Positions 1,645 to 60,943 of a stretch of 64,000 bases of DNA are shown here, one piece after another. The notes beneath the pieces are model-generated. The model was given only the letters and a program-made list of their open reading frames with translations, was not told the origin of the DNA and ran no database searches. The translations under genes were made by a program, and so were the position numbers. The first letter of the stretch is position 1. Every line of letters starts with the position of its first letter. This DNA is from Thraustochytrium sp. TN22 (Eukaryota > Sar > Bigyra > Thraustochytrida > Thraustochytriidae). The DNA is taken from NCBI GenBank assembly GCA_013306675.1, contig JABLUY010000153.1:1-64000 (forward strand), in the 5' to 3' direction.

Positions 1645-1940
1645 AGAGCTGACGACCATGAAACAGAGCAAGGAGAACAGAACCAAAGTTTGTTTTGCAA
1701 AGATTCAATGGCGAGGACATCAAGAAGGAGAAAGAAAAGGTTGCCGACAAGGATCTGAACGCCAAAACAGATTCAAAACTGGGATTTGCCTCTCAAAGGA
1801 ACGACTCGGAATCCAATTCTTGCCAGGGTCGTAAGCTTGCGCCACGCCGCGCAGCACAGCACAGGCACAGCGCAACTCAACGCAATGGAGTCTAGCTTTC
1901 ATGACCCTTGGCCACTTCGCCCTCTGCTGGATTTACCACA
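1645..1940. other. Convergent 3' untranslated spacer
   Basis: Spacer between two genes that point at each other (stop of the CDV3-like gene and stop of MsrB). It is less GC-rich than the flanking genes and must carry both 3' ends. No canonical AATAAA was seen. Confidence 0.6.
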
Positions 1941-4136: not shown

Positions 4137-7100
4137 ATGCTGCACCGTGACGAGGACTCGGACCTGGAGGACAAAGGTGTCCTGCAGCAGGGGGAGCGCA
4201 GTGCGAGCGAGGGCGAGAACTCGAGCGAGACGAGCGAGATGAGCAGCCAGAACAGTGAGAGCTCGAGCGAGACGGGTCGCCATTTCAGCGTACTTGTGGA
4301 TTGGCTGAGCGAGGGCGAACTGCGCTTCGTCCAGGCGTGTGTGCAAACATATCCCGAGGTGCTCAACATGCGCATCGCGAGGATGCCCGCAAAAGCTCCA
4401 GAGATGAGGAGGACGCCGGTGGCATGGGCGGCGGCATGCGGCCAGGTGGAGGCTGCCTTGTGGCTCGCGGCGATGGGGGCCAACGTTGACCTGCGCGGGT
4501 CCGACGGCAAGAGCGCACTCCTTCTGGCCTGCAAGAAGAGCGAAGAACTTGGCGTCGCGCTTCTCAAGCACTCCTTGCGCCCGCACCTGACTGGGTACGA
4601 CGGAACGACCCCGCTCCACGTGGCCGCTCAGGCGGGACTCGCGGAACTGGCGCAAGCGCTGCTCGAGCGCAAGGTGGACGTCAACGCGCAGGATCACGCC
4701 GGCGAGACGCCGCTTGCCGCTGCCTGCCGGTTCGGCCACGGGGCCCTCGCAAGTCTGCTCCTGACACACGGCGCGGAGGCCAACAAGGCGGCGCACAGCG
4801 GGGTGACGCCGCTCATGCTGGCCTGCTGCTGGAATGACCTGCACACAGCCAGGCGCCTCATTGAGCACGGGGCGCAGGTCGACCGCCGGACATTCCAGGA
4901 GGCGACCCCTGGCGGGGGCATCGCGGGGTGGCATTGCATCCGCGCTGGAGCCACGGCTCTCCACGTTGCTGCAGCGCCAGTCTGGGCGAAACAGCTGTCC
5001 GCCCCACTGGTGTGCATGCTCTTGGCGAGCGGGGCCAACGTTGACGCCCGCGACGACTCTGGCAGGACTGCGCTCATGCACGCCTGTGCCGGGCCCAACG
5101 TGGAGGTCGTGCGGGCGCTGGCTGCGCATGGTGCGAATCCTGACTTCCAAAACAGCAGTGGCGAGACGGCGCTGATGTTGTGCGCAGAGGCTGGACCGCA
5201 CGCCAAAACCCAGGTTACGCTTCTCATGAGTCTCGACGCTGACCTCAATCTCCAAGACATGAACGGCAGGACTGCCTTGCACCGGGTCTTGCGTCAGTCC
5301 CGCTATCGAGACATCGGAACGGCAGAGTACCTTGTCGCGCAAGGTGTGGACCTCGACCTCCAGGACACGCAAGGCCTCACGGTGCTTTTGGACGTTGTCC
5401 AGACCATTGAAAACTGGACAGCCCAGGTTGGATCGACAGGCACCATATATGAAACCCCGGACCACGCCCCCCCAGACCACGCCCCCCTTAGCGGTGACAC
5501 GGCCGACATCGTACGTCTGAGTGACTTCGCACGTCGCGTCATCGATGCTGGCGCAAATCTCGAGCTGCAAGATTCAGTCGCCACCAGCGCACTTCACCTT
5601 GCGGCTGGGCTGAAAGACGCAGAGCTGACGTCGTTGCTTCTCGCAAAGGGAGCCAACGTCAACGTCAGAACCGGCCAGGGCCAAACGCCGCTTATGCTGG
5701 CCATTCAGGAATCTGCTGTCAAAAGCGCGGAGGCCCTTTTGCTTGCCGGCGCTGACCCGGATCTGATCGCCGATGGTGACGAGGGGCATCTGTTTTGTGC
5801 GGCACTCCCTTCTGCAGCGGCGGCTGAGAAGTTGTCTGGTCTTTTGTCGATCATGATCGACAGGGGCGCGAACCTCAACATTCAGGAGCCCACGAGCGGA
5901 TACACAGCGCTCCTCGCCGCAATAAGGAGCTGGAATCACGAGAATGCTCGTCTCCTCGTTCTTGCTGGGGCCGACGTCAACATCCGGAGCTGGCCCTACT
6001 TCGAGGAATATGAGGAAATATGGCTCCCCGGCTCAGTCGCACTCTTTGAAGCGATACGGACCGACTCTGGCCCCGACTTTGTTCAACTCCTGCTGGATCA
6101 CGGGGCCAACCCGGACGCCTATGATACGATTGACAGCGACATGATCGTGTACGCCCTTCAGGCCGCGATCTCGAACGGCCACCAAGCCATCGCGCGCCTT
6201 CTCATTCAGCATGGTGCCAGTCTAGATGTGTGCGACGGCACCATTACGGACACCCCGCTCATTCTTGCAGTCCGCAACGGAATGGCTGACCTGGTCTGCC
6301 TGCTCCTTGATCGCGGGGCCGACGTGAACGCTAGGGGGAGTCGTATCGCCGCGGAGAACGATTTCAGGCCGCTGCAAAATGGGAACTGCACTGCGTTGAT
6401 CACGGCGGCGCAACTGGGCCACTTCGACGTCGCACAGGATCTCGTTGCGCGCGGCGCGAAGCTCGATCTTCGGGACCACTCGGGAGCCACCGCCCTGTGG
6501 TACGCAACGCAAACCGGAAACAGGGCCATCGCGTCCCTCTTGCTGCAGCACGGCGCGGACGTCAATCTTCCCGGAGACCGAGGCAAGACACCGCTCGCGT
6601 GCGCGTCGGGCGTTGGCGCGACTGACATCGTGCGCGCTCTTCTTGCAAAAGGTGCGCAGGTGGACCGCGGGAACGAATTTGGCGCGACTGCTCTCATGCA
6701 CGCCGCTTTCGCAGGCCAGCATGCTGTGGTCAAGCTCCTCTTGGAGCACGGCGCCTCGCCAGATGTCTTTGACCAGCAAGGACTTTCCGCGTTGATGCTC
6801 GCGTGCAGATTTGGCCACACGCTTACGGCCAAGGCGCTCGTGCGAGGCGGAGCTAGCCTTGACGTTTGCAGCCCTACATTCAGGGTCCCTGCGCTCACCT
6901 TCGCAGCCAGCAAGGGCGACTTCATCACGGCTCGCGCACTGATCGAGTTCGGCGCAAAGGTGCAGCAGGCTGGTCCTGATCGGCAGTCGGCGCTTCACTG
7001 GGCGGCCCAGGTCGAAGGCGACCTTCTGTCCGTGGACAACTACCAGCAGGTCCTATTCGTGTACACCCCTGACATCATGGGCATAGGCTCCCTCCCCGAC

Positions 7101-7802
7101 GATCGACTCGCCGGCGCCAAGCACGACAACGTGCGCCTTGCGGGCCTGCTCATCGAGCGTGGCGCAGACATTAACGCGCAGGATTCGCTGGAGGCCACCC
7201 CGCTCACCTATGCAATCGAGTCGGGCTCGCCTGCCCTGGTTCAACTGCTCCTCGAGCAAGGGGCGAGCCCATCCATCCCATGTCAGGGCTGGACTTGCTT
7301 GGAGCGCGCTGCTTTCAACCTGGAGCCAGACATCGCGAGACTCCTCATCGAGCACGGGGCCACCTTTGGGAATCCTTCGCTGTCCAACTTTACTGAGCAA
7401 GCTCTGCACCAGGTCGTCACGCAAGCAAGCTTTCCCTTGCTGCAGCTGATCGCTCAAGCATGTGCCGATCCGAACCTGCTGCGCAATTGGCGTGGCCCGA
7501 ATGGCGAAACTGCCCTCTTTCACGCGAGCGCTTGTGGGACCTCCTCTGGAGTGCTTTTCCTCATGCGTCAGGGTATCCCGGTCAACGCGCAAGACCGTGA
7601 CAACGGAGCTGCGCTTCACGCTGCTGTGAGGGAACAGCGATTTGGGACCGCTGTCCTCCTCATTACCTGCGGCGCCGACGTGAACCTGCAAAGGAGGGAC
7701 GGCACCACTGCCTTGATGCTGGCGGCCCAAAACGGGCATATGGCTCTGCTGCGGTTCCTCGTCGAGCATGGAGCCGATACCAGCTCACTCTCCGTCTGGT
7801 AG
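4137..7802 (+). CDS. Giant ankyrin-repeat protein
   Basis: Encodes 1,221 residues from the ATG at 4137; the frame is open slightly further upstream but only from a TTG. After an acidic, Ser/Glu-rich N-terminus (residues 1-45) nearly the whole protein is ankyrin repeats, recognisable by units such as DGTTPLHVAAQAGLAELAQAL, HAGETPLAAACRFGHGALAS and RDGTTALMLAAQNGHMALLR. I estimate more than 25 units, some irregular. Ankyrin arrays are protein-binding scaffolds; no enzymatic domain, membrane span or signal peptide is visible, so the partner is unknown. The ORF ends with TAG inside what looks like one more repeat: just after the stop another frame reads GYTAVDPASRRNHLDVVRCL, a plausible further unit. 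The annotated C-terminus may therefore be premature. Confidence 0.9.
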   Translation: MLHRDEDSDLEDKGVLQQGERSASEGENSSETSEMSSQNSESSSETGRHFSVLVDWLSEGELRFVQACVQTYPEVLNMRIARMPAKAPEMRRTPVAWAAACGQVEAALWLAAMGANVDLRGSDGKSALLLACKKSEELGVALLKHSLRPHLTGYDGTTPLHVAAQAGLAELAQALLERKVDVNAQDHAGETPLAAACRFGHGALASLLLTHGAEANKAAHSGVTPLMLACCWNDLHTARRLIEHGAQVDRRTFQEATPGGGIAGWHCIRAGATALHVAAAPVWAKQLSAPLVCMLLASGANVDARDDSGRTALMHACAGPNVEVVRALAAHGANPDFQNSSGETALMLCAEAGPHAKTQVTLLMSLDADLNLQDMNGRTALHRVLRQSRYRDIGTAEYLVAQGVDLDLQDTQGLTVLLDVVQTIENWTAQVGSTGTIYETPDHAPPDHAPLSGDTADIVRLSDFARRVIDAGANLELQDSVATSALHLAAGLKDAELTSLLLAKGANVNVRTGQGQTPLMLAIQESAVKSAEALLLAGADPDLIADGDEGHLFCAALPSAAAAEKLSGLLSIMIDRGANLNIQEPTSGYTALLAAIRSWNHENARLLVLAGADVNIRSWPYFEEYEEIWLPGSVALFEAIRTDSGPDFVQLLLDHGANPDAYDTIDSDMIVYALQAAISNGHQAIARLLIQHGASLDVCDGTITDTPLILAVRNGMADLVCLLLDRGADVNARGSRIAAENDFRPLQNGNCTALITAAQLGHFDVAQDLVARGAKLDLRDHSGATALWYATQTGNRAIASLLLQHGADVNLPGDRGKTPLACASGVGATDIVRALLAKGAQVDRGNEFGATALMHAAFAGQHAVVKLLLEHGASPDVFDQQGLSALMLACRFGHTLTAKALVRGGASLDVCSPTFRVPALTFAASKGDFITARALIEFGAKVQQAGPDRQSALHWAAQVEGDLLSVDNYQQVLFVYTPDIMGIGSLPDDRLAGAKHDNVRLAGLLIERGADINAQDSLEATPLTYAIESGSPALVQLLLEQGASPSIPCQGWTCLERAAFNLEPDIARLLIEHGATFGNPSLSNFTEQALHQVVTQASFPLLQLIAQACADPNLLRNWRGPNGETALFHASACGTSSGVLFLMRQGIPVNAQDRDNGAALHAAVREQRFGTAVLLITCGADVNLQRRDGTTALMLAAQNGHMALLRFLVEHGADTSSLSVW

Positions 7803-8218
7803 TCTCCAGTTCTGTCGGATACACCGCGGTCGACCCCGCTTCGCGCCGCAACCACCTGGACGTGGTGCGCTGTCTCGTCGGTGCAGCGCCTGAGATGCCG
7901 AAGCTGATTGCCACCAGTCCATGCTCAAATTCCTCTGCGAGCTTGTGACAGACAAAAGCGTTTGAGCACTGGGGAGATGGAGCACGACTTGCGCACGCTG
8001 GAGAACCTGTCGCGAGAAGACCGCAAGTTGCTTCGTAGATTCCTGCGAGCACGGTGCAGGCTTCTGGATCAGGCGAACGACATCGTCGACCGCCTATAAG
8101 TTGGTACGCTTATATTTGGAATGGCGAGAAATTCATCTGTTTTTTTGGGAGAGGTGGTTGGTTTTGGAAAAGGTCAGTGGCGTCGCCCGAGCTTCTTTCC
8201 AAGAGAAAGCTGTGCAGA
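7803..8218. other. Out-of-frame continuation of the ankyrin gene, then spacer
   Basis: From 7811 to 7948 a different frame encodes an ankyrin-like unit (GYTAVDPASRRNHLDVVRCL) before stopping. From 7977 to 8099 the original frame opens again as a 40-residue charged helix, MEHDLRTLENLSREDRKLLR. Both look like coding sequence belonging to the ankyrin gene's 3' end. A GT...AG pair at 7799-7809 would restore frame, but 11 nt is too short for an ordinary intron. The remainder to 8218 is the convergent 3' end of the carboxypeptidase gene. Confidence 0.45.
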
Positions 8219-9700
8219 TCAGGAGGTCTTCTCGGTCTTGGTCTTGGCAAAGTAGGCGGCGCCAAGCGCAAGCGCACCGCCAAGAGCGTAGAGCACGCCG
8301 TGCGAGCCGCCGTGCGGCTGCTGCGAAGAATCGACCCCTGCCTCGAGGCCGTCGGCCTCTGCCGCCTCTTGCGACGTGCGGAGCGTGGCCGTCGCGGCCT
8401 TGTCCGGTGCGGCCATGAGAATCTCCATCTTGGAGAGCTCCTTGAGGAGGGCGCGAAAGCCGAGGAGGATCTCGTTGCCGATGGGCTTGATTTCGGAGCA
8501 GCGCTCGACGAACTTGCCGCGCAACTCTACGACATACGTGAATGGAATCTTGGCCTCCTGAAAGGCCCAGGAGCTGGAGATGCCAGAGCCGGACGCAGAG
8601 GACGCCGGGCGCGGGCGCCACTCGTACTGGGCGTCGGCGGGCGCCTTGGTGTTGATGGCGTCGATGATGACCTGGCCCGTGTCTAGAACGTAGCCGGGCG
8701 TCTTGCCCTCGCGCGAGAAGGGCTCCAGCAGCGCCCCGATGCAGCAGTGCACGTCGAAGAAGGCGACGATCTTCTTGCGGTGCTTCTTGTGGTAGTCCCG
8801 CAGCGCGCGCGTCTCGGGCTCGGAGAAGCCGGCCGTGCCCTGGTAGATGTCGCTCTCGGTGAGGTCGATGGACTTGCTCTTCTTGTCCGTGCCCCAGATG
8901 GCCGGCGAGGAGCCAAAGTTGCGGTTCAGGTCAACCCCGAGCGTCATGTCCGGGTTGACGCGGCGGTTCTTGCGCCAGTAGCGCGCCTCGACCTCGTCCT
9001 CCTGGATGCCGCCCTTGGCCCACTTCTTCTTGATCTGCTTCTCCCCGGACCACGTGTACACGTAGCCATCCGGGTTGATGACGGGGATGGCAAAGACGCT
9101 CACGTCCGTGACGTCGATGCGCATGATGGTGAGCAGAACCGAGGTGGTGCTGGTCCACTCGCGCGCGTGCAGCGTGCCGGTGATCCAGGCGACCTTTTCC
9201 TTCTTCTTGGTGCGGCCGGCGTCGTAGGCTTCCTTGAGCGCCTCAGGGTTCCGGATCTCCACCGCCAAAATGGGCCGGCCCTCGACGCTGTACCCGATCT
9301 CCACCACCTCGCACGAGGCTCCATGGGAGCCGATCTCGGCGCGCAGCGTGCACAGCCGCTCGCGGATGAAGCGCTCCACCTCCTGGTACGTGCGGAACTG
9401 GCTGAAGAAGTCCCCGCCCTTGGGGTCTGAGCACCCGGACGGCGGCACGACCTGGCCCGCTTTGAGCTTGCCGATCTCGCGCTCCGTGTAGCCGAAGCCG
9501 CGCGCCAGCTCCAGCTCGGCGCGCGGCGCCTTCTTGCCGCCCGCCACGGCCGCCAGCGCCAGCACGGTCGCCACGACCGCCAGCACGGCCGCCGCGCCCG
9601 CCGCGGCCCAGCGCCCCCGCGCCGCGCGCCGCTGCGGCCTCCGCCGCCGCAGCCCGCGCGCGCGACGGCCGCCGCAGGCCGCCGCCAGCCCCGGGCTCAT
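8219..9700 (-). CDS. Membrane-anchored zinc carboxypeptidase, M14 family
   Basis: A 493-residue metallocarboxypeptidase that removes C-terminal residues from peptides. The M14 landmarks are all present: zinc ligands H178 and E181 in HAREW, H318 in FFDVHCC, substrate-binding NR at 259-260 in GVDLNRNF, NPDGY at 209-213, and catalytic E392 in YVVELRGKF. An Arg-rich cytosolic start is followed by a hydrophobic segment (about 32-53), so the enzyme is probably a type II or signal-anchored protein facing the lumen or outside. A second hydrophobic stretch near the C-terminus (GVLYALGGALALGAAYF) followed by a Lys-rich tail could be another anchor. The stretch between HAREW and NPDGY is shorter than in pancreatic carboxypeptidases. 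ATG at 9700 is the only good start. Enzyme family is firm; location is inferred. Confidence 0.9.
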   Translation of the reverse strand: MSPGLAAACGGRRARGLRRRRPQRRAARGRWAAAGAAAVLAVVATVLALAAVAGGKKAPRAELELARGFGYTEREIGKLKAGQVVPPSGCSDPKGGDFFSQFRTYQEVERFIRERLCTLRAEIGSHGASCEVVEIGYSVEGRPILAVEIRNPEALKEAYDAGRTKKKEKVAWITGTLHAREWTSTTSVLLTIMRIDVTDVSVFAIPVINPDGYVYTWSGEKQIKKKWAKGGIQEDEVEARYWRKNRRVNPDMTLGVDLNRNFGSSPAIWGTDKKSKSIDLTESDIYQGTAGFSEPETRALRDYHKKHRKKIVAFFDVHCCIGALLEPFSREGKTPGYVLDTGQVIIDAINTKAPADAQYEWRPRPASSASGSGISSSWAFQEAKIPFTYVVELRGKFVERCSEIKPIGNEILLGFRALLKELSKMEILMAAPDKAATATLRTSQEAAEADGLEAGVDSSQQPHGGSHGVLYALGGALALGAAYFAKTKTEKTS

Positions 9701-47629: not shown

Positions 47630-48168
47630 TGCCAGTGGGCTGGTCACTCGGCCACACACGGTCCGTGTAAGCAGCGAGCTTTGCGTGTCCGACCGGCTGC
47701 TCTTGCAGTTCTTCCGACTGCCTGGCCAGGCTGGCGGCTTTTGTCCTTGTGCAGGCTTGTGCACAACGCGGACCTGCAAATCAGCTCAGTCATGCGTGAT
47801 CGTGAACGCACGCCGGGATCCCGCGCCGCCCCGCGCCACCCAGGGCCGAACGAATAGCTGAGGGTTTGCCGGCAAACTTGCTTTGGGTGCGTGGTGCTGC
47901 CAGCGCTCTGATCAATCGGCCACATAGTTACGGGCCGTGTGAGCAGCGATTGCGTCTCCGAGTGGCTGCCCATGCAGCTCTTACGACTGCCTGGCCAGGC
48001 TGGCGGCCTTTGTCCTTGTGCAGGCTTGTGCGTGCACAACCTGCAAATCAGCTCAGTCATGCGTGATCGTGAACGCACGCCGGGATCCCGCGCCACCCCG
48101 GGCCGAACGAACAGCTGACTCGGAGGGTTTGTCGGCAAACTTGCTTCGGGTGCGTGGGCAGCATCTGG
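47630..48168. repeat. Two-copy tandem duplication, period about 268 bp
   Basis: The anchor CGGCCACA begins at about 47649 and again at about 47917. Each copy continues through GACTGCCTGGCCAGGCTGGC, GTCATGCGTGATCGTGAACG and GGGTGCGTGG. The second copy abuts the start of the GTPase gene, whose first ATG is about 30 bp downstream. Confidence 0.9.
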
Positions 48169-48195
48169 TGGTGGGTGTGGCGGCGGGGCCTCGGC

Positions 48196-51100
48196 ATGAT
48201 GGAGCGTGAGATGCAGGTGAGGCTTCTGGGGCTCTCGGTTGAGCGCGCCTCGCTCCGCAGGAGCCTCCTCCCGGCCAAGCTCCGAAGCGAGACACGAGCC
48301 GACTTCCCGGGAAGACTGCGCATAGAGAAGGATGGCATCATTCTTGTCATTTTCGAGGAGGGCAGCTCGCCACTCAAACTTGTGCGTGCAGCCTTTGGGC
48401 AACGCGACGATCTCCAGCCTCAGAAACTGGGCAGCCCCAAGGATCTCTTAGCCTTTGGACTTGCCGAGAACGAAGATGCCAGAGCCGCCGGAGAGTGGTG
48501 GCTCAGCGTCATGAGGAACGGAAAGCCGTGCAGGTACGACTTCAAGTCGAAGACCATTTTCCAAGCTGCGGGGTGGGTGCAGTCTCTTCGCATGTACAGA
48601 GGCGAAGACGCCATACCAGCCGTTGCCGTACTTGGCGCGACAGGTACTGGCAAGAGCCTTCTCGCATCAAGGCTCGCTGGACTGGATTCGCAAAATCAGG
48701 TCTTCGGCTCCGGAGCAAGTCTCACCTCAGTCACGAGCGCCACAACTATGTACGTCTCACACTGGCTCGGCGAGGAGGCCGAGGGCAATGAGGTCATTGT
48801 GATCGATACCCCGGGCCTAGGGGATAGCGAGGCCCGCGACGATGCGCTTGTGGAGGATATGCTTGCTCAGCTGAGCGATCTCGGTGGAGTCAACACGATG
48901 GTGCTCGCTTTCGATGGGCAGGCTCCCCGCCTGAGCGGGCCTCTTTCGGCGATGCTGGCGGTCTTCGAGTCCCGCTTCCCATCTGGCTTCTGGGAGCACA
49001 CTATGATCCTCTTCACTCACTGGTACGAGGATACTACCTCTCGCCGGCGTCGCAAAAAGGCCGCCAGGGAGCTCCAGCAGGAGTGGAATGCGGAGCTGCA
49101 CCAGCGCTTCCCTCGACTTAACGAGATGAGACGGGTCGACAAGGACATCCCCTGCTACTTTGTGGACAGCGATGCGCTCGATGTCGACGAGAAGTTGCTC
49201 GCAATCCAGGAGCTCCGCCGCTTCTGCGTGGCCGCTCGCCAGAACCCAAGCTTCGACTGCCGCCGCGTCCTGGCGGACCCGCGCGCCGTGACCAAGCTCT
49301 TCCGCAGGCAGGACATCCCGGAAGAGGCATTTGCGCTCGGCGAGTTTCTTCGCGCCGTGGCCCTCGAGGACAAGCTCGCGGGTCTCGTGGCAGCCGGCAT
49401 CACGACGGTCGACGTCCTCATGCAGGTGCCGGACGACAAGCTATTGGATTACTTCCAGTGGACCTTAGAGGAGTGCGACCGCATCCGCCGCCCAGCCAAG
49501 ACCGGCCCAACCGCCCCGCACTTTGTCGTCGTGAACGAGTTTATCACCATGGGCATTCCCACCGACGGCCTCATGGCCTCCGGACTCAGCGCCTCCGAGC
49601 TTCTGGGCCTTGGCGACGACGAGATCATGGACACACTGCAGCTTAACTTTGCGCAGCTCATGAAGTACCATGCCTGGCGTGATGCTATCCTTCGACAGCA
49701 GCCTGTCGCCATTGACACGCTCTTCCAAGGCGCAGTGGTCGTGCGCAACGAGGCTGTCTGGGAGTACGACGAGACTGACATGATGATGCAGGACCTTCAC
49801 GGCCCGGGCATGATCCTGAACTGGCGCGACCCCGACGGCGAGGTGCACGGCATCACCACTCTCCCACCGAACTGGACCGGCAGCCCGACCGCGTTCAACC
49901 CGCCCGTACTGGGTGGTTGGTGCCGTGTCTACTGGTTTGCCAGTGGCTTCTCCAACTGCTACCGCATTGGCTACGAGGGCCGTCACGACCTCGTGCATGA
50001 GACTCCCGAGGAGGTCGGCATTGAGGTGCCTCAGCCGCACGACCCCGCGCACTCGAAGCTCCTTCCGCCCGGCAACCTCAGCCAGGTCTCGTCCGGTGAC
50101 CTCCGCTGCACCTTTGGCTTCAAGAAGGGTCTTCGCTTTCCGCACTGGTCGCGGTGTGACATTCGCCCCGAGATCACCAAGGCGCTCGGTGGCTTTGTGC
50201 ACGGCGACATCGTCCGTGTCAACGACGTGCAGGCCATCTGCATTGGCGCCTCCATCACAACGGGCACCAACGTCAAGCTTCAGTTCCTGGTATTCGGCCA
50301 GGAGGAGGTCCAGGGCGCCGGCATCTTCGACGATGATGAGCTGCTCACCGCCACCAAGATTAAGCGAGGCGCCATTCAGGAGGTTCGGCACGCTGACATG
50401 AGGTGCCACGCCGATGCCGAGGCCACGCACGACCAGGTTGCCGACGTCGCAAGCCGCTTACAAGCCAACTTTCCGTACCCGATCGGCGCCAGATTCATGG
50501 AGCCTGGCGATTTCGACGTGCGTCCTGAGATCATCAGAGTCTTCGCGCCGGGACTCACCAGCGGCGACGTCCTCAGTCTGCAGACGCCGCGCGGCATCCG
50601 CAACTTCACCGTAATCGGCGTTTCTACGCACAAGACCAACCGCCCGCGCCTCTACATGCACGAGGACGGCGACCCCGGTGGCTCGCACTGGGTGCGTCTC
50701 ATGGAGGACTACCCGGGCCGCTTCACGAAGACCTCGCACGTCCACGTGCAGCCGCAGCGGGTCGAATTGGACACCTTCCCGGCGCCCTCCGAGACAGAAC
50801 TGCGTCGAATGCGCCTGCGCCCCACCCTGCAGTTTCCCATCGGCAAGGATGGCTTCAGCAGCGGCACCTTTGATGTGCGTGACACTGAGTGCGGCCGTCT
50901 CTGTGGCTATGCCTCCGGCACCGTGCTCGATTTCCGAGGCCGGGACGAAACGGTGCTCACTGTCATTGGCATCAAGCCCAACCCACACACCAATCTGCCC
51001 ACCATCTGGTACCATGTCGAGGGCCAGCGCTGCGCTGTATTCATCCCGGCATTTTACGAGCTCCGCTCCTCGCTCGTCGCGCGCGAGGAGAGGCGTGACC

Positions 51101-51435
51101 TGACTGCCTTTGCACGGGAGCTCGCTTCCGCGCCGCGAGGCATGCCCCTCATGCTGCCCCGACCTCCTCAGGATGGAGACGGCGAGGAGGAGGGCCCAGG
51201 TGAGGGAGTACCTTCCGGCCTTGCAACACTCCTCCTGATGCTCGCTCTGGCCAGGGCCAGCGCGGAGGCAAACGATGCAAAAGAAGAGTCAAATCGGCTC
51301 TGCGGGGTACGAAGAAAAGCTCCGAAAGTACCTTACAAGCCTTCGCGTCCGAGTCGGTTGCCCCCATCTCGTCTGCGTTTGTCCAGGAGGAACAGCGACG
51401 CTGAGTCGGACGATGGGGACGCTCACAAGAATTAA
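48196..51435 (+). CDS. AIG1-type GTPase with helical, MIB/HERC2-like and three repeated C-terminal modules
   Basis: Encodes 1,079 residues. The first ATG is 48196 (MMEREMQVRLLG); the frame is open from a GTG at 48154 but that part belongs to the repeat. The GTPase domain (about 140-330) has a P-loop GATGTGKS at 147-154, a TSATTMYVSHW segment and the switch II DTPGLGD at 204-210, as in AIG1/GIMAP/Toc-like septin-related GTPases. Two SAM-like helical segments follow (about 390-430 and 445-485). Next is a MIB/HERC2-like module (about 513-605) ending NCYRIGYEGRHDLV. Three related modules of about 90 residues then begin near 647, 760 and 881, each with a core like F[DC][VI]R..E and a downstream G..SGD or equivalent. 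The C-terminus is basic. MIB modules elsewhere bind substrates of ubiquitin ligases. AIG1 GTPases act in plant and animal immunity and at membranes; the role here is open. Confidence 0.85.
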   Translation: MMEREMQVRLLGLSVERASLRRSLLPAKLRSETRADFPGRLRIEKDGIILVIFEEGSSPLKLVRAAFGQRDDLQPQKLGSPKDLLAFGLAENEDARAAGEWWLSVMRNGKPCRYDFKSKTIFQAAGWVQSLRMYRGEDAIPAVAVLGATGTGKSLLASRLAGLDSQNQVFGSGASLTSVTSATTMYVSHWLGEEAEGNEVIVIDTPGLGDSEARDDALVEDMLAQLSDLGGVNTMVLAFDGQAPRLSGPLSAMLAVFESRFPSGFWEHTMILFTHWYEDTTSRRRRKKAARELQQEWNAELHQRFPRLNEMRRVDKDIPCYFVDSDALDVDEKLLAIQELRRFCVAARQNPSFDCRRVLADPRAVTKLFRRQDIPEEAFALGEFLRAVALEDKLAGLVAAGITTVDVLMQVPDDKLLDYFQWTLEECDRIRRPAKTGPTAPHFVVVNEFITMGIPTDGLMASGLSASELLGLGDDEIMDTLQLNFAQLMKYHAWRDAILRQQPVAIDTLFQGAVVVRNEAVWEYDETDMMMQDLHGPGMILNWRDPDGEVHGITTLPPNWTGSPTAFNPPVLGGWCRVYWFASGFSNCYRIGYEGRHDLVHETPEEVGIEVPQPHDPAHSKLLPPGNLSQVSSGDLRCTFGFKKGLRFPHWSRCDIRPEITKALGGFVHGDIVRVNDVQAICIGASITTGTNVKLQFLVFGQEEVQGAGIFDDDELLTATKIKRGAIQEVRHADMRCHADAEATHDQVADVASRLQANFPYPIGARFMEPGDFDVRPEIIRVFAPGLTSGDVLSLQTPRGIRNFTVIGVSTHKTNRPRLYMHEDGDPGGSHWVRLMEDYPGRFTKTSHVHVQPQRVELDTFPAPSETELRRMRLRPTLQFPIGKDGFSSGTFDVRDTECGRLCGYASGTVLDFRGRDETVLTVIGIKPNPHTNLPTIWYHVEGQRCAVFIPAFYELRSSLVAREERRDLTAFARELASAPRGMPLMLPRPPQDGDGEEEGPGEGVPSGLATLLLMLALARASAEANDAKEESNRLCGVRRKAPKVPYKPSRPSRLPPSRLRLSRRNSDAESDDGDAHKN

Positions 51436-52429: not shown

Positions 52430-53869
52430 TCACGGCTTGCGACGCAGGACGAGCGTGCAGGAGCCCGAAGTGCCGCCGTTGGGCGTGTAGCTGACGGTGG
52501 TGACCTTCTTGTCCTTGGAAAAGCGGTGGATGGCATGGTACTGCACCATGTGCGAGCCGTCGTCGTAGCGGAAGATGAGGCGCACGCAGGGCGTGCAGGC
52601 GGAGTCGAGCAAGAACGCGGGCCGCGGCACGACGGCAATGTCGAGCTGCACGCCCTGCGTGGCGGCGGCACCGTCCACCGCTCCTTCCACGACCGTATAG
52701 GTGGGCCCGGTCCACGTTGTGATGGTGGCGATGCCGTCCTCGATCTGCACGGTCTCCGAGAGCGGCATCAGGGCGGAGGCGGTGCGATTCAGCAGCGAGA
52801 CACCTTGCGCTGCCCAGACCGGGTCCATGGACTCGCTTTCGACGCCGATCACGGACCAGTTGCCCGGGAGCGCCGCGAGCAGGTCATCGCGGTCGTACAG
52901 AACGGCCGGCTCGTGGTCACCGGCCGCGGCAGCGCCCGCATCGCCGGCGTGCACGTAGTTGACATGGCGCACGAATTTGCTCAGCTCGCTCTCGATGCCC
53001 ACGTGCTCCAGATCGCGCGAGAGCGTTCCGGAGAAGACGTCGGGCATAATATCCTCGGGCAGATCCATGGGCGACTCAAGCAAGAAGACTGAGTTGCGCG
53101 TGTGCTCGTCCAGAAAGCTGGACATGAGCGCCCAGGCGATGCGAAAGGCGCGCGACACGTTCACAAAGTAAATCTTGGCCGTGAGCCCCGGGTAGTGCGT
53201 CATGGCAATGCTCGTGGCGCCAAAGTACTGGCGCACGCTGCCGAAGACCTGCGCGAAAACGGGCGTGTTCTCCACGTCGATGATCTGCACGATCTGGCCC
53301 GTGCGCGAGAGGCCCTCTCGAATCCAGTACTCTGTGAGGAACATCTGGTGCCTCGCGAAGCGCTCCGGCGAGATGCCGTTGCGCCGCAGCGCCGCGACCA
53401 CCTTGCGTGTGTCGCGGAGTAGCTGCAGCGACACCAGGTTGCCGCTCTCGTCCATGCCAAGCCAGTACTGCGGGTACAGATGCTTGATGTGGAAGAACTC
53501 GCGCTGCTCACGGTCCAAGATGTCCTCGAGCGCGTGCGCGTTGCGGTACGCCGCCATGGACCGCCATCGCGCGCGCGCCGCCTTGACATCGCCGCCGCAG
53601 TAGTCCACCCAGCGCTTGGGCACCTCCGCCTCGGGGTCTTGCGCGCGGCTGCCGTCCAGCGCGGCGCGCAGCTCCTCGAGGCCGCCTTGATGCTCCAGGT
53701 CATCGAAGCTCGCCACGGCCGCCGAGGACACCGCCAGGCTGGCCATCCACGACGCGTGGCTCGCCGTCGTGCCCGTGCTCTCCTCGCCCTTGCTGCTCTT
53801 GCTCTTGGACCGGCGTAGGTACGAGCTCCGTGTCGCCGCCACCGCCGTCGACCCTGCCCCGCGCGTCAT
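52430..53869 (-). CDS. CRAL-TRIO (Sec14-like) lipid-transfer protein
   Basis: Encodes 479 residues from the ATG at 53869; a longer frame to 54058 adds only Arg/Gly-rich sequence. A disordered Ser/Lys N-terminus is followed by a helical part (KRWVDYCGGDVKAARARWRS) and the CRAL-TRIO lipid pocket at about residues 135-290. The pocket shows YWLGMDESGNLVSLQLL, TGQIVQIIDVENTPVFAQVF, YPGLTAKIYFVNVSRAFRIA and WALMSSFLDEHTR. The C-terminal 150 residues are a beta-rich region ending SYTPNGGTSGSCTLVLRRKP, perhaps a GOLD-like domain as in other Sec14-GOLD proteins. Such proteins bind phosphatidylinositol, phosphatidylcholine or tocopherol-like lipids and act at Golgi and endosomal membranes. The ligand cannot be read from sequence. 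Confidence 0.85.
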   Translation of the reverse strand: MTRGAGSTAVAATRSSYLRRSKSKSSKGEESTGTTASHASWMASLAVSSAAVASFDDLEHQGGLEELRAALDGSRAQDPEAEVPKRWVDYCGGDVKAARARWRSMAAYRNAHALEDILDREQREFFHIKHLYPQYWLGMDESGNLVSLQLLRDTRKVVAALRRNGISPERFARHQMFLTEYWIREGLSRTGQIVQIIDVENTPVFAQVFGSVRQYFGATSIAMTHYPGLTAKIYFVNVSRAFRIAWALMSSFLDEHTRNSVFLLESPMDLPEDIMPDVFSGTLSRDLEHVGIESELSKFVRHVNYVHAGDAGAAAAGDHEPAVLYDRDDLLAALPGNWSVIGVESESMDPVWAAQGVSLLNRTASALMPLSETVQIEDGIATITTWTGPTYTVVEGAVDGAAATQGVQLDIAVVPRPAFLLDSACTPCVRLIFRYDDGSHMVQYHAIHRFSKDKKVTTVSYTPNGGTSGSCTLVLRRKP

Positions 53870-54958
53870 GCTGCCGCCGCCGGCCCCGGGGCCGCGCGCT
53901 CGCCGAGGAGCGCGGCCTGGGCTCTGCCGCCGCCGCTCGCCGCCCCGCCTCGACCGGGCGCCGCCAGCGCGCCTCCGCCCGCGCGCCTCGACTCCGCGCG
54001 CGCGCCGTCGGGGTCTGCCTCTGCGCGCGCCACCGCGCGTGCACGTGTCGTGTCGCAAACCCGCGCGCGCGTACTAAACCCGCCCGTTCACAAGCTGCAC
54101 GCAGCTGCACCCCGTGCAGCGGCGGCTGTTCGAGGCCAACCAACTGACCTTGCAGCGCTTGCACGCCGCGAGAAGCGCTGCGCTACTGTGCCGCTGTGCG
54201 CTTGAAGCGCCTTCGCGGGCCGAAGGCTCCGGGTTGAGAAGGTGGTGCAAGCCTGGGCGTGCCACCACTGCTCCGAGTCCGACGAACGTCACTACGGCCT
54301 GCGAGTAGCGGCGAGTACGAGCTCGACCAGGAATACAGGTTCGACTGCCATGGTGTTGCAAGGGAGGACCTGCGGTTCCCATCGCGGAGCCGGTCGGCAG
54401 TACCTGCCTTTCAAGTCCAAAGCGTAGCCGTGACACAGGTAGAAGCGCGGTAGCAAAAAGCGCTGGTGCGAGCCGGTACAGACCGCGACGGTCGTGGTCG
54501 ACATTTTCTTATGAGCTAAAGTACGCGGCTGGCACGGACCGCGGCACGACCATAGCCTATCCGCGGCGTATGACTGGCAACACTCTGTGGCATGCATGAG
54601 CGCATCATGACCGCATGGGGTCATGATTTATGCATTAGAGTGCATTGGCATTGGTCTGGCATTGGTCTGGCATTGGTTCTGGCGTTGTCTTGGTCCTGGC
54701 TTTGACGTCCTGGCATTGGTCTCTGGCATTGTCCTGGCATTGTCCTGGCATTGATGTTTTCGACCACTGTCCGCTGGAAAGGAGGAGACCTGAGGAGAAA
54801 GAGAAGCACGAGGCGACCCGACACGGACCCGAGCCGACCCAACCCACGCGGGCAGTCCAACGCTAGTGCGCAGCGAGCAGTCCGGCAGTCCAACGCTCGC
54901 GCGCAGACCGACGTCGGCGCGCAGCGCAGCGGCCGCGAGGCCGCACCTTCATGAGGCG
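53870..54958. other. Divergent spacer with minisatellite, no complete gene recognised
   Basis: About 1.1 kb between the Sec14-like gene (leftward) and the Stealth gene (rightward). It has a GGCATTGGTCT-type minisatellite at 54642-54751 and two copies of CAGTCCAACGCT near 54854 and 54885, just upstream of the Stealth start. Short frames near 54240-54430 contain CHHC but no longer domain. Confidence 0.5.
54642..54751. repeat. TGGCATTG-type minisatellite
   Basis: About nine diverged units of roughly 10-13 bp built on CTGGCATTGGT, on a background that is otherwise GC-rich coding DNA. It lies about 200 bp upstream of the Stealth gene. Confidence 0.85.
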
Positions 54959-56517
54959 ATGCGCGGAGGCCCGCGGAGGACGTGGTCGGCGGGCGAGGCG
55001 GTCGAGGTCGTCTTCTTCTGGGTCATCTTCGTCGTCGCCCTTGGCCTGACGCTGCACTACGGCGTGGAGGTGGCGCCCACGAGTGCGCCGCAGGTCTGTG
55101 CCGCCCCGGCCGCCGCCGCCAGCGCTGCCGCCGTGCCTGCAGGCGCTCAGACGGCGACCTGGGCGCAGCAACAGGACGACCAGGACCAGGATCAGGACAC
55201 GGACGAGTGGAACAACGCCATCCGCTTCTCGTTGGAGCCCACGCACCAGGCCGCTGCCAAGACACACGCCGCCAAGATGTCGCCGACGCATCAGCACCAA
55301 GAGCAAGAGCAAGGGCAAGAGCAGCAGCAGCAGCGGCAGGAGCAGGCGCAACCGGCGAGCTGTGACGCAGATCTCTCGAGCAGCCAGGGCGACCCGGGCA
55401 AAGCGCGTGGCGTGGCTGAAGCAATCACCATGCACTGGAAGCGCGCCGAGGAGACCGAGGTGCCCGGGCTGCGCGACGCACCCGCGTGGTCTGTGACGGC
55501 AGTCACGCAGCTCAGCACAGAGCGCCTATCGCGGCTCGCCAGCCTGCTCGAGGCCTGGCGCGGACCCGTCTCGGCGGCTGTGCTCGTCTGCAAGCAGGAG
55601 GATGTAGAACGCGTGGAGACCTGGCTGGCGGCGCTGCTGGAGACGCAGCGCGACCGACTTGCGCAGCGCTTCTTGAGCCTGCACCTGGTCAAGGCTGCCG
55701 CGGACCCGTACCCTGTGAACCTGCTGCGCAACGTGGCCCAGGAGGGCGTCCCGGACACGCGCGGCTTTAGCCTCGTTGTGGACGTGGACGCTTCGGTCGG
55801 CGCGCAGGCTCTCGAGGCAAGCCGGGACGTCCGACGCGCTGTGGAACGCCTGGCAGCGCCCGCCAGCACCGTGCTCTGCGTGCCGGCGCTCGAGGTCGTT
55901 GACCGCTCGGACACCGCAGGGGCGGGGGCGCCCCCGGCACTGCCGCGCGACTACACGGAGATGCGCGCCATGGTAAATGCAGGCGTGGCACGGCCCATGC
56001 ACGCAGGCCGCAGGTCCTACAGCGGGCCCTTCGACCTCAAGGAGTGGGTGGCGCGGCGCGAAGCATACAAGCTCGCTTACGAGGTCATGTTTGAGCCGTA
56101 CTACGTGCGTCGCACGGCCGCCGACTGGCCGCCGTTCCCTGAGGAGTTCCTTGGACGCGGCTTCAACAAGCAAGCGCACCACTTCGAGCTCTTCGCGCGG
56201 GGTCATGAATACGCTGTGCTGGGTCGCACCTTCGTGGTCGACGTACCGCATGAGGACGCCAGCTGGTCCGCGTCCTCGCGCGATCTGCAGGACAATAAGC
56301 CGTTGTGGTTTGCCTTCCGAGACCGTGTTGCCGAGCAGTTCGGCCTTTCATGCTACGCGGAGGACTGGGCGCGCTGCGACCGGCGCGGCGTCGCGTGCGG
56401 CCGCGTGTGTCAGGCCGGATCCGGCGGCGACGCCTCGCGCGGAGAGCACGCTAGCACGCGCAACCGCCACCACCACCAACAACAACACCAACAACAGCAA
56501 CCACCTCACCACAGCGC

Positions 56518-56556
<39 letters not shown>

Positions 56557-57841
56557 CGCGCTACGCAGCGCCGACGCGGCCGGGGTGGCCGCGTCACGGG
56601 GTCCCGACGAGGAGACGCCAGACGCGCCGCACCCCTCGACGCGGCGGCGCGAAGACGCCAGCTCGGCATCTTCGTTGTCCAGCTCGTCCTCCGCTGCGGT
56701 ACACTCGACCTCAAGCGACACGCGCAAGGTCCGGCCGCCCTCGGACCTGTACTGGAAGGTCTTTCTCGAGGGCCTGGCCTCCAAGCCGAGGCTGCAAAAG
56801 CTGCCGAACGACGTCACGTGTCGCAACGCGGACGGCCGCCCGCTCGTGGACGTGGTATACACCTGGGTGAATGGGTCAGACCCGGCGCACGAGGCGCTGC
56901 GTCGCCAGCACATCCCCGCGGACGCCTTCCAGGGCACCATGGACGTGGGCGAGGGCCGCGCCGTACCGGCGGGCGACCTCGCGTACCGCTTCCGCGACTA
57001 CGGCGCAGCCAGCACGCTGCGCTTCTCCTTGCGCAGCCTGCGTGCCTTCGCGCCCTGGGTGCACCGCGTCTTCATCGTCACGGCGAACGGGCAGCGGCCG
57101 TCCTGGCTGGATGCCGACACGGCCGCGCAGAGCGCGCCTGAAGTCGTCTTCGTCTCGCACGAGACCATCTTTGCGGGCCGCGAAGACGCGTTGCCCACCT
57201 TCAACTCGTGCGCGATCGAGTCGCAAATCCACCGCATCCCGGGCCTCGCGGACTGCTTCCTGTACCTGAACGACGACTTTTTGCTCGCCAAGCCGCTCGA
57301 CTTTGAGGACCTCTGGCCTCAGGACGAGCCCGTGCCGCGCGTTCACTTTGGCCCGGAGCGCGCGCCGCGCGTCGGCCGCGACCCTTGGCAGGTCAAGATC
57401 GCCAACGTGGGCAAGATGATGCACCGCGACCTGGGACTGCGCTGGGAGCACATGTTCACGGTCTCGCACCAGGGCTTCTTCTTTATCAAACCCATCGTCG
57501 AGGACGCGCAGCGCCTCATGACCGCCGAGTTCGAGCGCACCGCCCGCGAGCGGTGGCGCACGCCCTACTCCGTCTGGCTGCCCTTTGTTTACGCCAACTA
57601 CTTCGCCCACACCTACGCTGCTGTCGCCCGCAAGGCCAGCGCTCTCTATGTACGCCTCACCGACTTTACGCTGCAGGACGACGCGCTGCCCGCCGCGCTC
57701 GCCCGCGTCCGCGACCGCCGTCCGCAGTGGCTATGCGTCAACGACCTCGTCACGCGCCCCGACGACGCTCTTGTCCATGCTCTGCGCGACATGTTCGTCG
57801 CGCTGCTCCCCGAACCTCTGCTCTACGAACGCGATGCTTAA
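54959..57841 (+). CDS. GT49 (LARGE/B4GAT1-like) glycosyltransferase fused to a Stealth phosphotransferase
   Basis: Encodes 960 residues. The ATG at 54959 gives a short cytosolic tail and one membrane span (about 14-34), so it is a type II Golgi-type protein. Residues about 179-475 match family GT49: VTAVTQLSTERL at 179, YPVNLLRNVA at 251, a DVD metal site at 275-277, FEPYYVRR near 379 and GFNKQAHHFEL near 401. These mirror VTLVTQLS, YPVNLLRNVA, DID, FEPYVV and GFGWNK of LARGE. A His/Gln-rich linker follows. Residues about 631-960 are a Stealth domain with CR1 VDVVYTWVNGSD, CR2 FRDYGAASTLRFSLRSLR and YLNDDFLLAKPL, CR3 MFTVSHQGFFFIKP, and CR4 WLCVNDLV. Stealth enzymes, including GlcNAc-1-phosphotransferase, transfer sugar phosphates. 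The protein thus carries two sugar-transfer active sites in one chain. Substrates are unknown. Confidence 0.88.
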
Positions 57842-58678
57842 CCCAATTGTACCATGTGGCCGCTCTTTTGCTTGCGTGGCCGTGGCGCAAGGCAGCTCAC
57901 GAGGCGGCCTTGGCTGGGCAGCTCACGAGGCGGCCTTGGCTGGGCAGCTCACGTTGGCTGCACTTCGAGAGACGATGATGACGCGTGCCAGCGCAGCGCA
58001 ACGCAGCGCAGCGCAACGCAACGTACGATGCGGTGCTGCATCTCCCCCGAGCTCAAGGTGCCCAGAACCTCGCGGCGCACGTTCTCCATCCTCACGACGT
58101 CGTGCCTCCGGCCGAGCTCGGGCTGCTGACCCAGAGCAGGCCGACCGGCTGCGCACGGTCGGCCACGCAACCTCGGCAACGTCGATGCCATTCGTCGTTC
58201 GTCCGGTACGCAGACTACGGCGGCACCAATGGCGCGCTCATTGGCGCCAGAGCCCGCAGAGCCCCAGGTACTGATTATCAACCTGGCACCTCCGGTACAC
58301 TGGCCGGTTCTCCGGTCTCCGCGGGATCCGCGCGGCCGCTCCTTCTCCGCGCGGCGGCCGCCGCGACCAAATCGGATTCTCGCGCGCGCGCGGCGGCGGC
58401 GGCGGCGGCGGCGGCGGCTCGCGCGCGCGGACGCGCCCGCGCGGCGGCGGCGGCGCGAGCGAGCGAGCGGCGGCGCGCGGCGGCGGCCGCGTTTCCGCGT
58501 TTTGGAGCCGAGGGGGCTAGCGGGGGAGGCCGGGCGGCGGCAGGCGCGCGCGCGCGCGGCGCGGCGGCGCGGCGGCGCGGCGGCGCGGCGCGGCGGCGCG
58601 GCACGCAGCGCAGGGCAAGGCAGACGCCGGAGCTGGTGGACGGCGCCGAGGCGCCGAGGCGGCGGGACGCGGAACGCG
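57842..58678. other. Spacer with 26-bp repeats, GC-rich leader of the PARP gene
   Basis: Same-strand spacer of 837 bp. It holds near-perfect copies of a 26-bp unit at 57891-57957 and a GCAGCGCAAC run near 57990-58023. The last 300 bp are almost purely G and C and keep the PARP frame open from 58229, but its product is Arg-rich and unlikely to be translated. Confidence 0.5.
57891..57957. repeat. 26-bp tandem repeat, two full copies and a partial third
   Basis: GGCAGCTCACGAGGCGGCCT plus TGGCTG repeated in direct tandem immediately 3' of the Stealth stop codon. Confidence 0.95.
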
Positions 58679-60943
58679 ATGGCGCTGGAGAACGGGGGCG
58701 AGGTGCTCGTGGCCTTCCCGCCGCTGGACGCCGGGGAGGAGCCGTGGCGGAGCGAGGACGTGGAGATGCTGCGCGAGTCGTGCGGGTCGCGGGCGAGCAA
58801 CGTGACCATCATGTCGGGCGACGTGGTGGAGGATGAGGATGAGGAGGAGGAGGAGGAGGGAGATCGCGAGGAGAGCAAAGACGCCAACGCGGAGGAGACG
58901 AAGCTCAGCAGCGGGAGCCCGGAGCCCGCCAAGAGCAGGACGGATGGCACGGCGCAGGGTTCGCAGCCTACTGTGCAGGAGCAGCAGCAGCAGCAACAAC
59001 AACAACAACAACAGCCAGGCAAGCGGCGACGATTGGCGAGCGCGCTCCGCCTGATTTGGCCAAGCTCGTCCTCGTCGTCGAGCTCTACCGAGGCGCAAAG
59101 CGTTGAGGAGACGCGGACTGGCGAAACGGCGCCGGCGCCGACGGGGGACAAGCCTCTGGACGAGAACGTCGACCTGGACGGGGACGAGGACGCGTACTGG
59201 GACGATGACAGCGATTGCGGCGCGGACTTCATTGACGAAGACGCGGATGCCACCTCGGACGCGATGGTCGACCCTGCGCTTGTGCTCGTGGGCCAGGCGA
59301 TGAACCCGGAGGGGGGCTGGGACTCGATGCAGACGATGGAGCGCGAGCTGAGCGCAGCGTGCGGCTCAATGCCTCCAGGCCTGCGCGCCGCATTCTATGC
59401 GCTGCCGTGCGCGGCGTCGTGGCTGTGGATCGAGGCAGACATGTTCACACTGCACTCCATGCGAGCGAGCGAGCTGGCCGGCGTGCAGGCTCTGTGCGCC
59501 ACCAAGGAGGAGAAACTGTCGGGCCGCGTGGCGTGCGTGCGCGTCCTCATCAAGGTGACTCGCCGGCTGTCGTGGGACAGCGTGGAAGTCAGGGGCCTGA
59601 CGCGCAGCTTCCCCCAAGTAGGTCAGGGCATCTACGAGGGCGCGCACGCCCCGGACCTGCGCGACATCTTGCCGAGCTCGGTAAACTGGCTGCTTATCGA
59701 CCGCCTCAGGCAGCGCGCGCGCATCGAGGCAAGGAAAGGGCCGCGCCCGCACGACGCGCCGCGGAGCTCTGTGCCGCTGGCTGTGCTTGGGCGTTTCGTC
59801 GCCGACACCGTGGCCGGCATTGCCGGGTCGTGCATGCTGTGCTCGTCGCGCCTGCCTCTGCAAATGTATCGGCCGGTGGTCTGCGAGGCAGAGCGCTGCG
59901 TGTTCCAGGCGGAGGAGCTCAAGCTCGGCGTCTGCGTGGAGCACGAACTGATCGAGAACTGGGAGGTGGTGGATCTGCTACTGGTCTTCCTCTCCTGCGC
60001 GCTGGTCTGCAAGACCAAGAACGCGATCTCGCTCTGCATGCCCAAGGGCACCGGCATCCCAGACAACGAGTACGCGCTCGAGAACCTGATGCGAGCGATG
60101 CCGTCCATGGCGATCCTACGCGAGCAGGCCGGTCTGGGCACGCTGCGCGGCTACCTGGACGCCATCGACGAGCACCTCTACTCGCTGCTGGGCTGGCTCA
60201 TCGGAGGAGGCTGCCGTACCTTTCTGCGGCGGCTGCCTCCGGATGAGGAAATTCCTGGACTCGACACGGTGTGCCAATTCCAGGTGATCTCGCCGCTCGA
60301 GAAGGAGGCGCGCTTCCAGACTCTGCAGCGCCAGTACGGCTCCTTTCTTGCCTTTCACGGCAGCCCGGCGGAGAACTGGCATTCCATCGTGCGCCTCGGC
60401 CTCAAGAACTTTAGCAATGACCTCAGATACCGCTTGCACGGCGCCTCGTACGGCTCCGGCATCTACCTGGCTGAGCAGAGCGGGACGAGCCGGCAGTACG
60501 TCAAGGCTGGCGCGGTCGGCTGGTCCGGCAGCGCGCTGCTCGCCGGCGAGACCGACCCTGCCGGCGCCGTAGAGCTGCGCTGCCAGGCGCTTTGCGAGGT
60601 GGTTCACAACCCGAGCGAGTTTACCTACGCCACCAAATCGGCCAAGGGCTCCCCGCGCATGACGGCGCTGCCCGACCCGAACTTTAGGCCCGAGCCCAGC
60701 GCCGTGACGCGCACTGCATCCTCAGGCCCTTCGGCCTCTGCGGGCCTTAGCTCGCAGCGCATGTCGCGCTCCTCGAGGGACGGCATTTACGTCGTACCGC
60801 ATGAGGACTACGTCAAGACCACGGTCTTGCTTTTGCACACCAAGTCCTTCAACTTCAGTGGGTCGACGCATGCGCATGTGCGCGACCTGCAGCTCTCGCC
60901 CGCCACTTTCCCGCGAGCCTCGCCGCCGTCTCGGCCCTCATGA
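58679..60943 (+). CDS. PARP6/8-like mono-ADP-ribosyltransferase
   Basis: Encodes 754 residues from the ATG at 58679 (MALENGGEVLVAFPPLDAGE). The N-terminal third is disordered, with Glu, Gln and Ser runs. A conserved middle (about 220-500) includes a Cys-rich part, GSCMLCSSRLPLQMYRPVVC, like the region before the catalytic domain in PARP6/PARP8. The catalytic fold at about residues 545-740 shows AFHGSPAENWHSIVRLGLKN with the NAD-binding His, HGASYGSGIYLAEQ with the Tyr, and a final strand YVVPHEDYVKTTVLLLH. The Glu needed for chain elongation is not seen at its usual place, as in PARP6/8/16, so mono-ADP-ribosylation is expected. A basic Ser-rich tail follows. Protein targets are unknown. Confidence 0.85.
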   Translation: MALENGGEVLVAFPPLDAGEEPWRSEDVEMLRESCGSRASNVTIMSGDVVEDEDEEEEEEGDREESKDANAEETKLSSGSPEPAKSRTDGTAQGSQPTVQEQQQQQQQQQQQPGKRRRLASALRLIWPSSSSSSSSTEAQSVEETRTGETAPAPTGDKPLDENVDLDGDEDAYWDDDSDCGADFIDEDADATSDAMVDPALVLVGQAMNPEGGWDSMQTMERELSAACGSMPPGLRAAFYALPCAASWLWIEADMFTLHSMRASELAGVQALCATKEEKLSGRVACVRVLIKVTRRLSWDSVEVRGLTRSFPQVGQGIYEGAHAPDLRDILPSSVNWLLIDRLRQRARIEARKGPRPHDAPRSSVPLAVLGRFVADTVAGIAGSCMLCSSRLPLQMYRPVVCEAERCVFQAEELKLGVCVEHELIENWEVVDLLLVFLSCALVCKTKNAISLCMPKGTGIPDNEYALENLMRAMPSMAILREQAGLGTLRGYLDAIDEHLYSLLGWLIGGGCRTFLRRLPPDEEIPGLDTVCQFQVISPLEKEARFQTLQRQYGSFLAFHGSPAENWHSIVRLGLKNFSNDLRYRLHGASYGSGIYLAEQSGTSRQYVKAGAVGWSGSALLAGETDPAGAVELRCQALCEVVHNPSEFTYATKSAKGSPRMTALPDPNFRPEPSAVTRTASSGPSASAGLSSQRMSRSSRDGIYVVPHEDYVKTTVLLLHTKSFNFSGSTHAHVRDLQLSPATFPRASPPSRPS

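Follow-up and report, generated by a model that had tools for sequence, protein, structure and literature searches.

Can a GT49 glycosyltransferase and a Stealth phosphotransferase be carried by one and the same polypeptide, and what would such an enzyme produce? These questions are raised by a locus of Thraustochytrium sp. TN22, for which a fusion of the two families was proposed on the basis of sequence motifs. The analysis was performed on a stretch of 64,000 nucleotides (the window), which belongs to contig C59 of a 37.9 Mb genome assembly of 453 contigs and has a G+C content of 60-76% when scanned in 2 kb steps. All coordinates of the fusion given below refer to the forward strand (+) of this window.

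One open reading frame for two domains

The coding sequence (P0001), obtained by open-frame reading, extends over positions 54959..57841 and encodes 960 amino acids in one uninterrupted frame that ends with a stop codon at 57839-57841. The surrounding stop-free stretch reaches from 54794 to 57841 (1015 codons from stop to stop), its earliest in-frame ATG is located at 54959 and an out-of-frame ATG is found upstream of this start at 54951. The encoded chain begins with a short, basic N-terminal segment and a single membrane anchor; the GT49 domain comes next, and a poly-Q/Ser linker connects it to the Stealth domain. Pfam matches to both families within a single open frame support the fusion that the original prediction had described, and the joining of GT49 and Stealth is confirmed as a real observation. 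The short N-terminus contains Arg residues at positions 2, 6 and 7 and is followed by a predicted signal anchor at approximately residues 13-35 (54995..55063). This anchor is supported by hydropathy analysis: the most hydrophobic 19-residue stretch begins at residue 14 with a mean hydropathy of 2.51, and the top 12 stretches start at residues 9-21. A type II topology is presumed for the protein. Behind the anchor, residues 36-170 (55064..55468) form a low-complexity stem in which Q, E, D and A are abundant. The linker between the two domains (residues 486-600; 56414..56758) has a high content of Ser, Gln, Ala and His and contains neither an in-frame stop nor an in-frame ATG.

It was considered whether two neighbouring genes, or an accident of assembly or annotation, could have placed independent frames in register. 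Among first-order Markov sequences with the make-up and length of the coding sequence, 0 of 5000 remained open over the full length. The linker alone was open by chance in 778 of 5000 sequences with the make-up of the coding sequence and in 1871 of 5000 sequences with its own make-up, so that the openness of the linker by itself proves little and would be compatible with two genes or an artefact; the poly-Q run within it is also a spot where assemblies can slip. The distribution of start codons argues in the other direction. In-frame Met codons are present at positions 1, 107, 158, 335, 338, 347 and 377 and then only at 661, which lies within the Stealth domain behind its first conserved region (CR1). 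As no in-frame ATG exists at codons 378 to 660, a Stealth gene of its own without introns would lack CR1, which makes two separate genes unlikely, and a Stealth half on its own would also be devoid of an anchor. The GC3 value, taken in ten blocks of at most 100 codons, remains at 0.79-0.90 throughout the frame, including the linker, and the window does not contain any N letters. Long single open frames are moreover seen for other genes of this genome, namely a GNPTAB-like gene of 1391 aa and a PfaA gene of 3044 aa. Taken together, an artefact or a pair of neighbouring genes is highly improbable.

The surroundings of the fusion were also inspected. A 1120-aa frame at 48073-51435 (+) of the window encodes an AIG1/GBP-like GTPase (AIG1, 1.4e-9) with weak SAM and Mib/HERC2-like matches below cut-off. 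On its far side, the upstream region of the fusion is bordered by a CRAL/TRIO domain frame at 52430-54073 (-; 1.8e-13), and downstream a long frame at 58130-60943 (+) contains poly-acidic and poly-Q stretches and a C-terminal PARP catalytic domain (4.4e-11). Elsewhere in the genome, the 3044-aa PfaA-type PUFA synthase frame reached 2539.7 bits in total against a cut-off of 1010.1, a value that none of 14 control genomes exceeded, and a 2083-aa frame is located on the opposite strand of the same contig. This pair of frames fits the arrangement of thraustochytrids such as Schizochytrium and Aurantiochytrium.

The GT49 and Stealth halves

The motifs that had been named as GT49 signatures (VTAVTQLS, YPVNLLRNVA, DVD and FEPYYV) are present in the sequence, and the profile match is significant. 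The Pfam scan identified Glyco_transf_49 (PF13896) with 3.3e-28 and 99.4 bits against a curated cut-off of 27, in two stretches that cover positions 1-67 and 113-291 of the 329 profile positions and that were both recovered in the genome search. Residues 175-434 (55481..56260) matched LARGE1 when the whole chain was used, and the GT49 domain alone as the query yielded a LARGE1 match of 7.4e-20. The presumed metal-binding motif DVD (D275 and D277; 55781..55789) aligns to the DID motif of LARGE1. Genome searches revealed at least three GT49 frames (on contigs C59, C10 and C425); D275 and D277 are invariant in all three GT49 domains found, and DVD-type, YPxNxLRN and EPY motifs are also present in the two other frames. 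The structure model of the GT49 half, based on only 3 alignment rows, has a pLDDT of 39.7, too low for a usable view of a GT-A fold. Plasmids yielded no GT49 relatives, nor did pattern searches of viral and prokaryote genome contigs, which may miss distant relatives, and the whole fusion chain did not match phages or viral contigs.

The GT49 half resembles LARGE1 in its position behind an N-terminal anchor and stem and in its DxD motif, and B4GAT1 is likewise a GT49 enzyme behind an N-terminal anchor and stem. The fusion differs from LARGE1 by the lack of a GT8 partner in the chain (no GT8 match by Pfam at E up to 1) and by the Stealth domain behind its GT49 domain. The six GT8 places found in the genome share no contig with any of the three GT49 frames. 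One of the other GT49 frames is unusual in its own right: locus L007 (G000:C10:29500-39000) contains a 1635-aa frame at 4241-9148 (-) with an LRR_6 match (2.7e-7) and a C-terminal GT49 domain (3.7e-36). This leucine-rich-repeat-GT49 frame has no clear anchor in the 1543 aa that were scanned (best 19-residue hydropathy 1.79) and is a second odd GT49 fusion of this genome, perhaps cytosolic in location.

The C-terminal half had been claimed to contain all four Stealth regions. This holds by position and by residues; by score, only CR1 and CR2 (two of the four regions) pass the curated Pfam cut-offs. CR1 at residues 630-650 (VDVVYTWVNGSDP; 56846..56908) was found with 5.3e-10 and 39.3 bits (cut-off 27.2), and CR2 at residues 684-789 (57008..57325), which carries the NDD motif, with 4.2e-32 and 111 bits (cut-off 39.4). 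CR3 at residues 836-883 (57464..57607; H837 and R867) and CR4 at residues 916-959 (57704..57835; C926 and N928) remained below their cut-offs with 8.9e-4 and 19.6 bits (cut-off 24.2) and 0.012 and 16 bits (cut-off 27.4), respectively. Despite these scores, both regions are in the correct position and contain their key residues. The Stealth half matched GNPT (3.4e-32), the fly homologue (4.5e-31) and CpsY (1.2e-27).

In human GNPT, mutation of R322, D408, H956, R986 or N1151 reportedly diminishes or abolishes activity, and H956 has been proposed as the general base of a His-Asp mechanism (PMC11418123). All five essential residues have identical counterparts in the fusion: R677 corresponds to R322, D773 to D408, H837 to H956, R867 to R986 and N928 to N1151, where the counterparts of R322 and D408 were placed by alignment and those of H956, R986 and N1151 were counted by eye on printed alignments. 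R677 is located just before CR2 and D773 within the NDD motif, and the HSED sequence that follows R986 in human GNPT is replaced by TPYS in the fusion. In an alignment of 10 rows, nine of them bacterial, D631, R677, N771-D772-D773, H837, R867 and C926 are invariant in all rows, and two of the nine bacterial rows have Gln at the position of N928. When aligned with seven viral-contig rows, R677, D772, D773, H837 and N928 are invariant (8 of 8 rows) and N771, R867 and C926 are not. An AlphaFold2 model of the Stealth half, computed from 8 rows, has a pLDDT of 74.8 and a pTM of 0.82. The 13 best PDB matches of this predicted fold are all Stealth enzymes with TMt values of 0.57-0.87 (0.87 for CpsY), followed by ordinary GT-A enzymes at E values of about 1e-5.

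The resemblance to GNPTAB thus covers Stealth sequence, predicted fold, the five essential residues and the nearest branch in the trees described below. In contrast to GNPTAB, the fusion lacks the Notch (LNR) modules between CR2 and CR3 as well as DMAP and EF-hand, carries an N-terminal GT49 domain and has a compact Stealth part of about 330 aa. The absence of such inserts is supported by the Pfam scan: Notch, DMAP and EF-hand gave no match in the fusion chain at E up to 1. Bacterial capsule and exopolysaccharide Stealth enzymes of the CpsY type are similarly compact and collinear with the Stealth half (24-32% identity in the 10-row alignment), but a GT49 partner was not seen for them.

Relationships of the Stealth half

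Genome searches revealed at least two Stealth frames, the fusion on C59 and a GNPTAB-like gene on contig C202, in which all four conserved regions score above cut-off and two Notch stretches are present. The C202 gene is contained in locus L009 (G000:C202:16500-26400; frames 2337-6512 and 6513-9482, -), where a 989-aa frame is located directly upstream of it; this frame presumably encodes a sulfatase-type secreted enzyme. Relatives of the Stealth half outside of this genome were found in 47 plasmid records and 7 viral-contig loci. Nine of the 47 plasmid records were used, hand-picked for spread without clinical species; for two of these nine, the match covers under half of the query. The best plasmid-borne bacterial match (H1) aligns collinearly with 99% of the Stealth query. 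Nothing was found in prokaryote genome contigs by a pattern search with the Stealth half, although bacterial Stealth enzymes exist on plasmids, which indicates that the pattern searches are insensitive, including those that were negative for GT49.

In phylogenetic trees the Stealth half joins the C202 protein and human and fly GNPT with support values of 98/96 (20 rows) and 85/89 (13 rows). The smaller tree corresponds to the 20 rows minus seven (five viral and two bacterial), and its values of 85/89 lie below the mark of strong support of the tree tool. Because fewer rows lowered the support, the eukaryotic grouping is only moderately supported. The fusion row also forms a long branch in both trees. 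Pairwise BLAST of the fusion Stealth half gave C202 as the best match (128 bits), just ahead of a viral-contig row (122 bits); from the side of C202, the fusion ranks tenth of 17, with nine bacterial or viral rows scoring higher. Identity to C202 amounts to 52% over residues 656-787 in a six-frame search and to 31% over 336 columns with joined pieces. Judged from these comparisons, the Stealth half would most likely be a divergent eukaryotic Stealth domain without inserts. A bacterial origin, which was suggested by the compact form, is less likely, since the Stealth half groups with eukaryotic GNPT at moderate support. One of the viral contigs provides a separate observation: at L025 a frame (1375-3444) that runs off the locus end encodes Stealth CR2 (4.4e-22) followed by DUF4422 (6.6e-7), so that fusion of Stealth to another domain is not unique as such.

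Proposed function and its implications

The original prediction placed the protein in the Golgi, where it could extend a glycan and use a sugar phosphate to cap or link it, and from the families and kept residues this can reasonably be inferred. We regard it as probable that the fusion is a type II bifunctional Golgi enzyme that both elongates a glycan and attaches a sugar-1-phosphate; its location, donors, acceptors and activity are all deduced rather than observed properties. The enzyme would be a single-pass type II protein of the secretory pathway, probably of the Golgi. With the presumed type II anchor at approximately residues 13-35, preceded by three Arg residues, both catalytic domains would face the Golgi lumen, joined by a flexible linker. 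In the GT49 domain, D275 and D277 would hold the metal ion, and one sugar would be transferred from a UDP-sugar onto the glycan. The GT49 enzymes LARGE and B4GAT1 add glucuronic acid to xylose, and the donor would most likely be UDP-glucuronic acid. This donor is plausible because the genome encodes a UDP-glucose dehydrogenase family match (1.3e-57). In the next step the Stealth domain would take an entire sugar-1-phosphate from a UDP-sugar and attach it to a hydroxyl group on this glycan or on one next to it. D773 would orient H837, which would take the proton, the acceptor oxygen would attack the beta-phosphate, and R677, R867 and N928 would hold the phosphate and the acceptor. With both sites presumably active and acting in sequence, the product may be an acidic glycan with phosphodiester groups, destined for the cell surface, for scales or for slime that is secreted.

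A GT49 relative of the fusion decorates the human muscle protein dystroglycan, and domains of the LicD class and PMT domains belong to the types involved in assembling the core of dystroglycan in animals. LicD-type (FKRP/FKTN class) and PMT domains were not found in the genome, with 2 and 7 of 14 controls positive, by a search that proceeded exon by exon, scored only the best candidates and may miss genes. A matriglycan-type pathway or acceptor as in animals is not favoured, given that LicD and PMT domains were not found.

Three other functional readings were weighed. The Stealth half could be the sole enzyme, with a drifted GT49 half that recognises the acceptor glycan or protein, a role like that proposed for the additional modules of animal GNPT. 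An Ala residue follows DVD where the two paralogues and LARGE1 have Phe or Leu, and the LARGE1 match of the GT49 half is weaker than the GNPT match of the Stealth half (7.4e-20 vs 3.4e-32). Nevertheless, LARGE1 and all three GT49 domains found in this genome share D275, D277, YPxNxLRN, GxNK and H431, which leaves a drifted GT49 half conceivable and rather unlikely. The fusion may instead be mainly a tagging enzyme. A GNPT-type sugar-phosphate enzyme tags human lysosomal enzymes, and the fusion would similarly place a GlcNAc-1-phosphate mark that directs sorting, and its GT49 half would work on the same glycans. The grouping with C202 and with human and fly GNPT (98/96; 85/89) would fit such a role, but a Notch-bearing GNPTAB-like gene (C202) is already present in the genome and the fusion is without a Notch, DMAP or EF-hand match. 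The fly GNPT-type enzyme is, according to PMC11418123, also one that does not act in the M6P pathway, and a tagging role appears distinctly doubtful. A CIMR-type receptor domain was found neither in the genome nor in any control genome and says little about this question. Finally, the bacterial capsule polymerases CslB, Cps1B and Ccs2, which combine GT-A and TagF-like domains, make poly(oligosaccharide phosphate) (PMC5974469). Each of them unites a glycosyltransferase with a sugar-phosphate transferase in a single chain, and they constitute the nearest functional precedent. Their phosphotransferase is TagF-like and GT-B-like, whereas that of the fusion is Stealth, and a TagF-like (GT-B) domain was absent among the six Pfam matches of the fusion at E up to 1. 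The same source describes bacterial Stealth enzymes as probable single-domain polymerases (PMC5974469), and a later paper likewise attributes capsule polymers with sugar-phosphate bridges to enzymes of the Stealth family (PMC10299916). It is unlikely, on balance, that the fusion is a eukaryotic counterpart of these polymerases that builds poly(oligosaccharide phosphate) by alternating GT49 and Stealth steps.

The two enzyme families that the protein joins are each known, but their pairing was not found in the open-access papers searched. In keeping with the original prediction, no description of GT49 together with Stealth was found in the open-access literature, while domain databases such as InterPro may list the architecture; open-access papers on Stealth domains in protists, or on exopolysaccharide phosphotransferases in thraustochytrids, were likewise not found. 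As a bifunctional Golgi enzyme, the fusion predicts a definite product, namely a glycan that carries both a GT49-added sugar and a phosphodiester-linked sugar. It could also provide a tool enzyme for the preparation of phosphodiester-linked glycans. If this reading is true, phosphoglycan synthesis would be extended to a thraustochytrid-like lineage.
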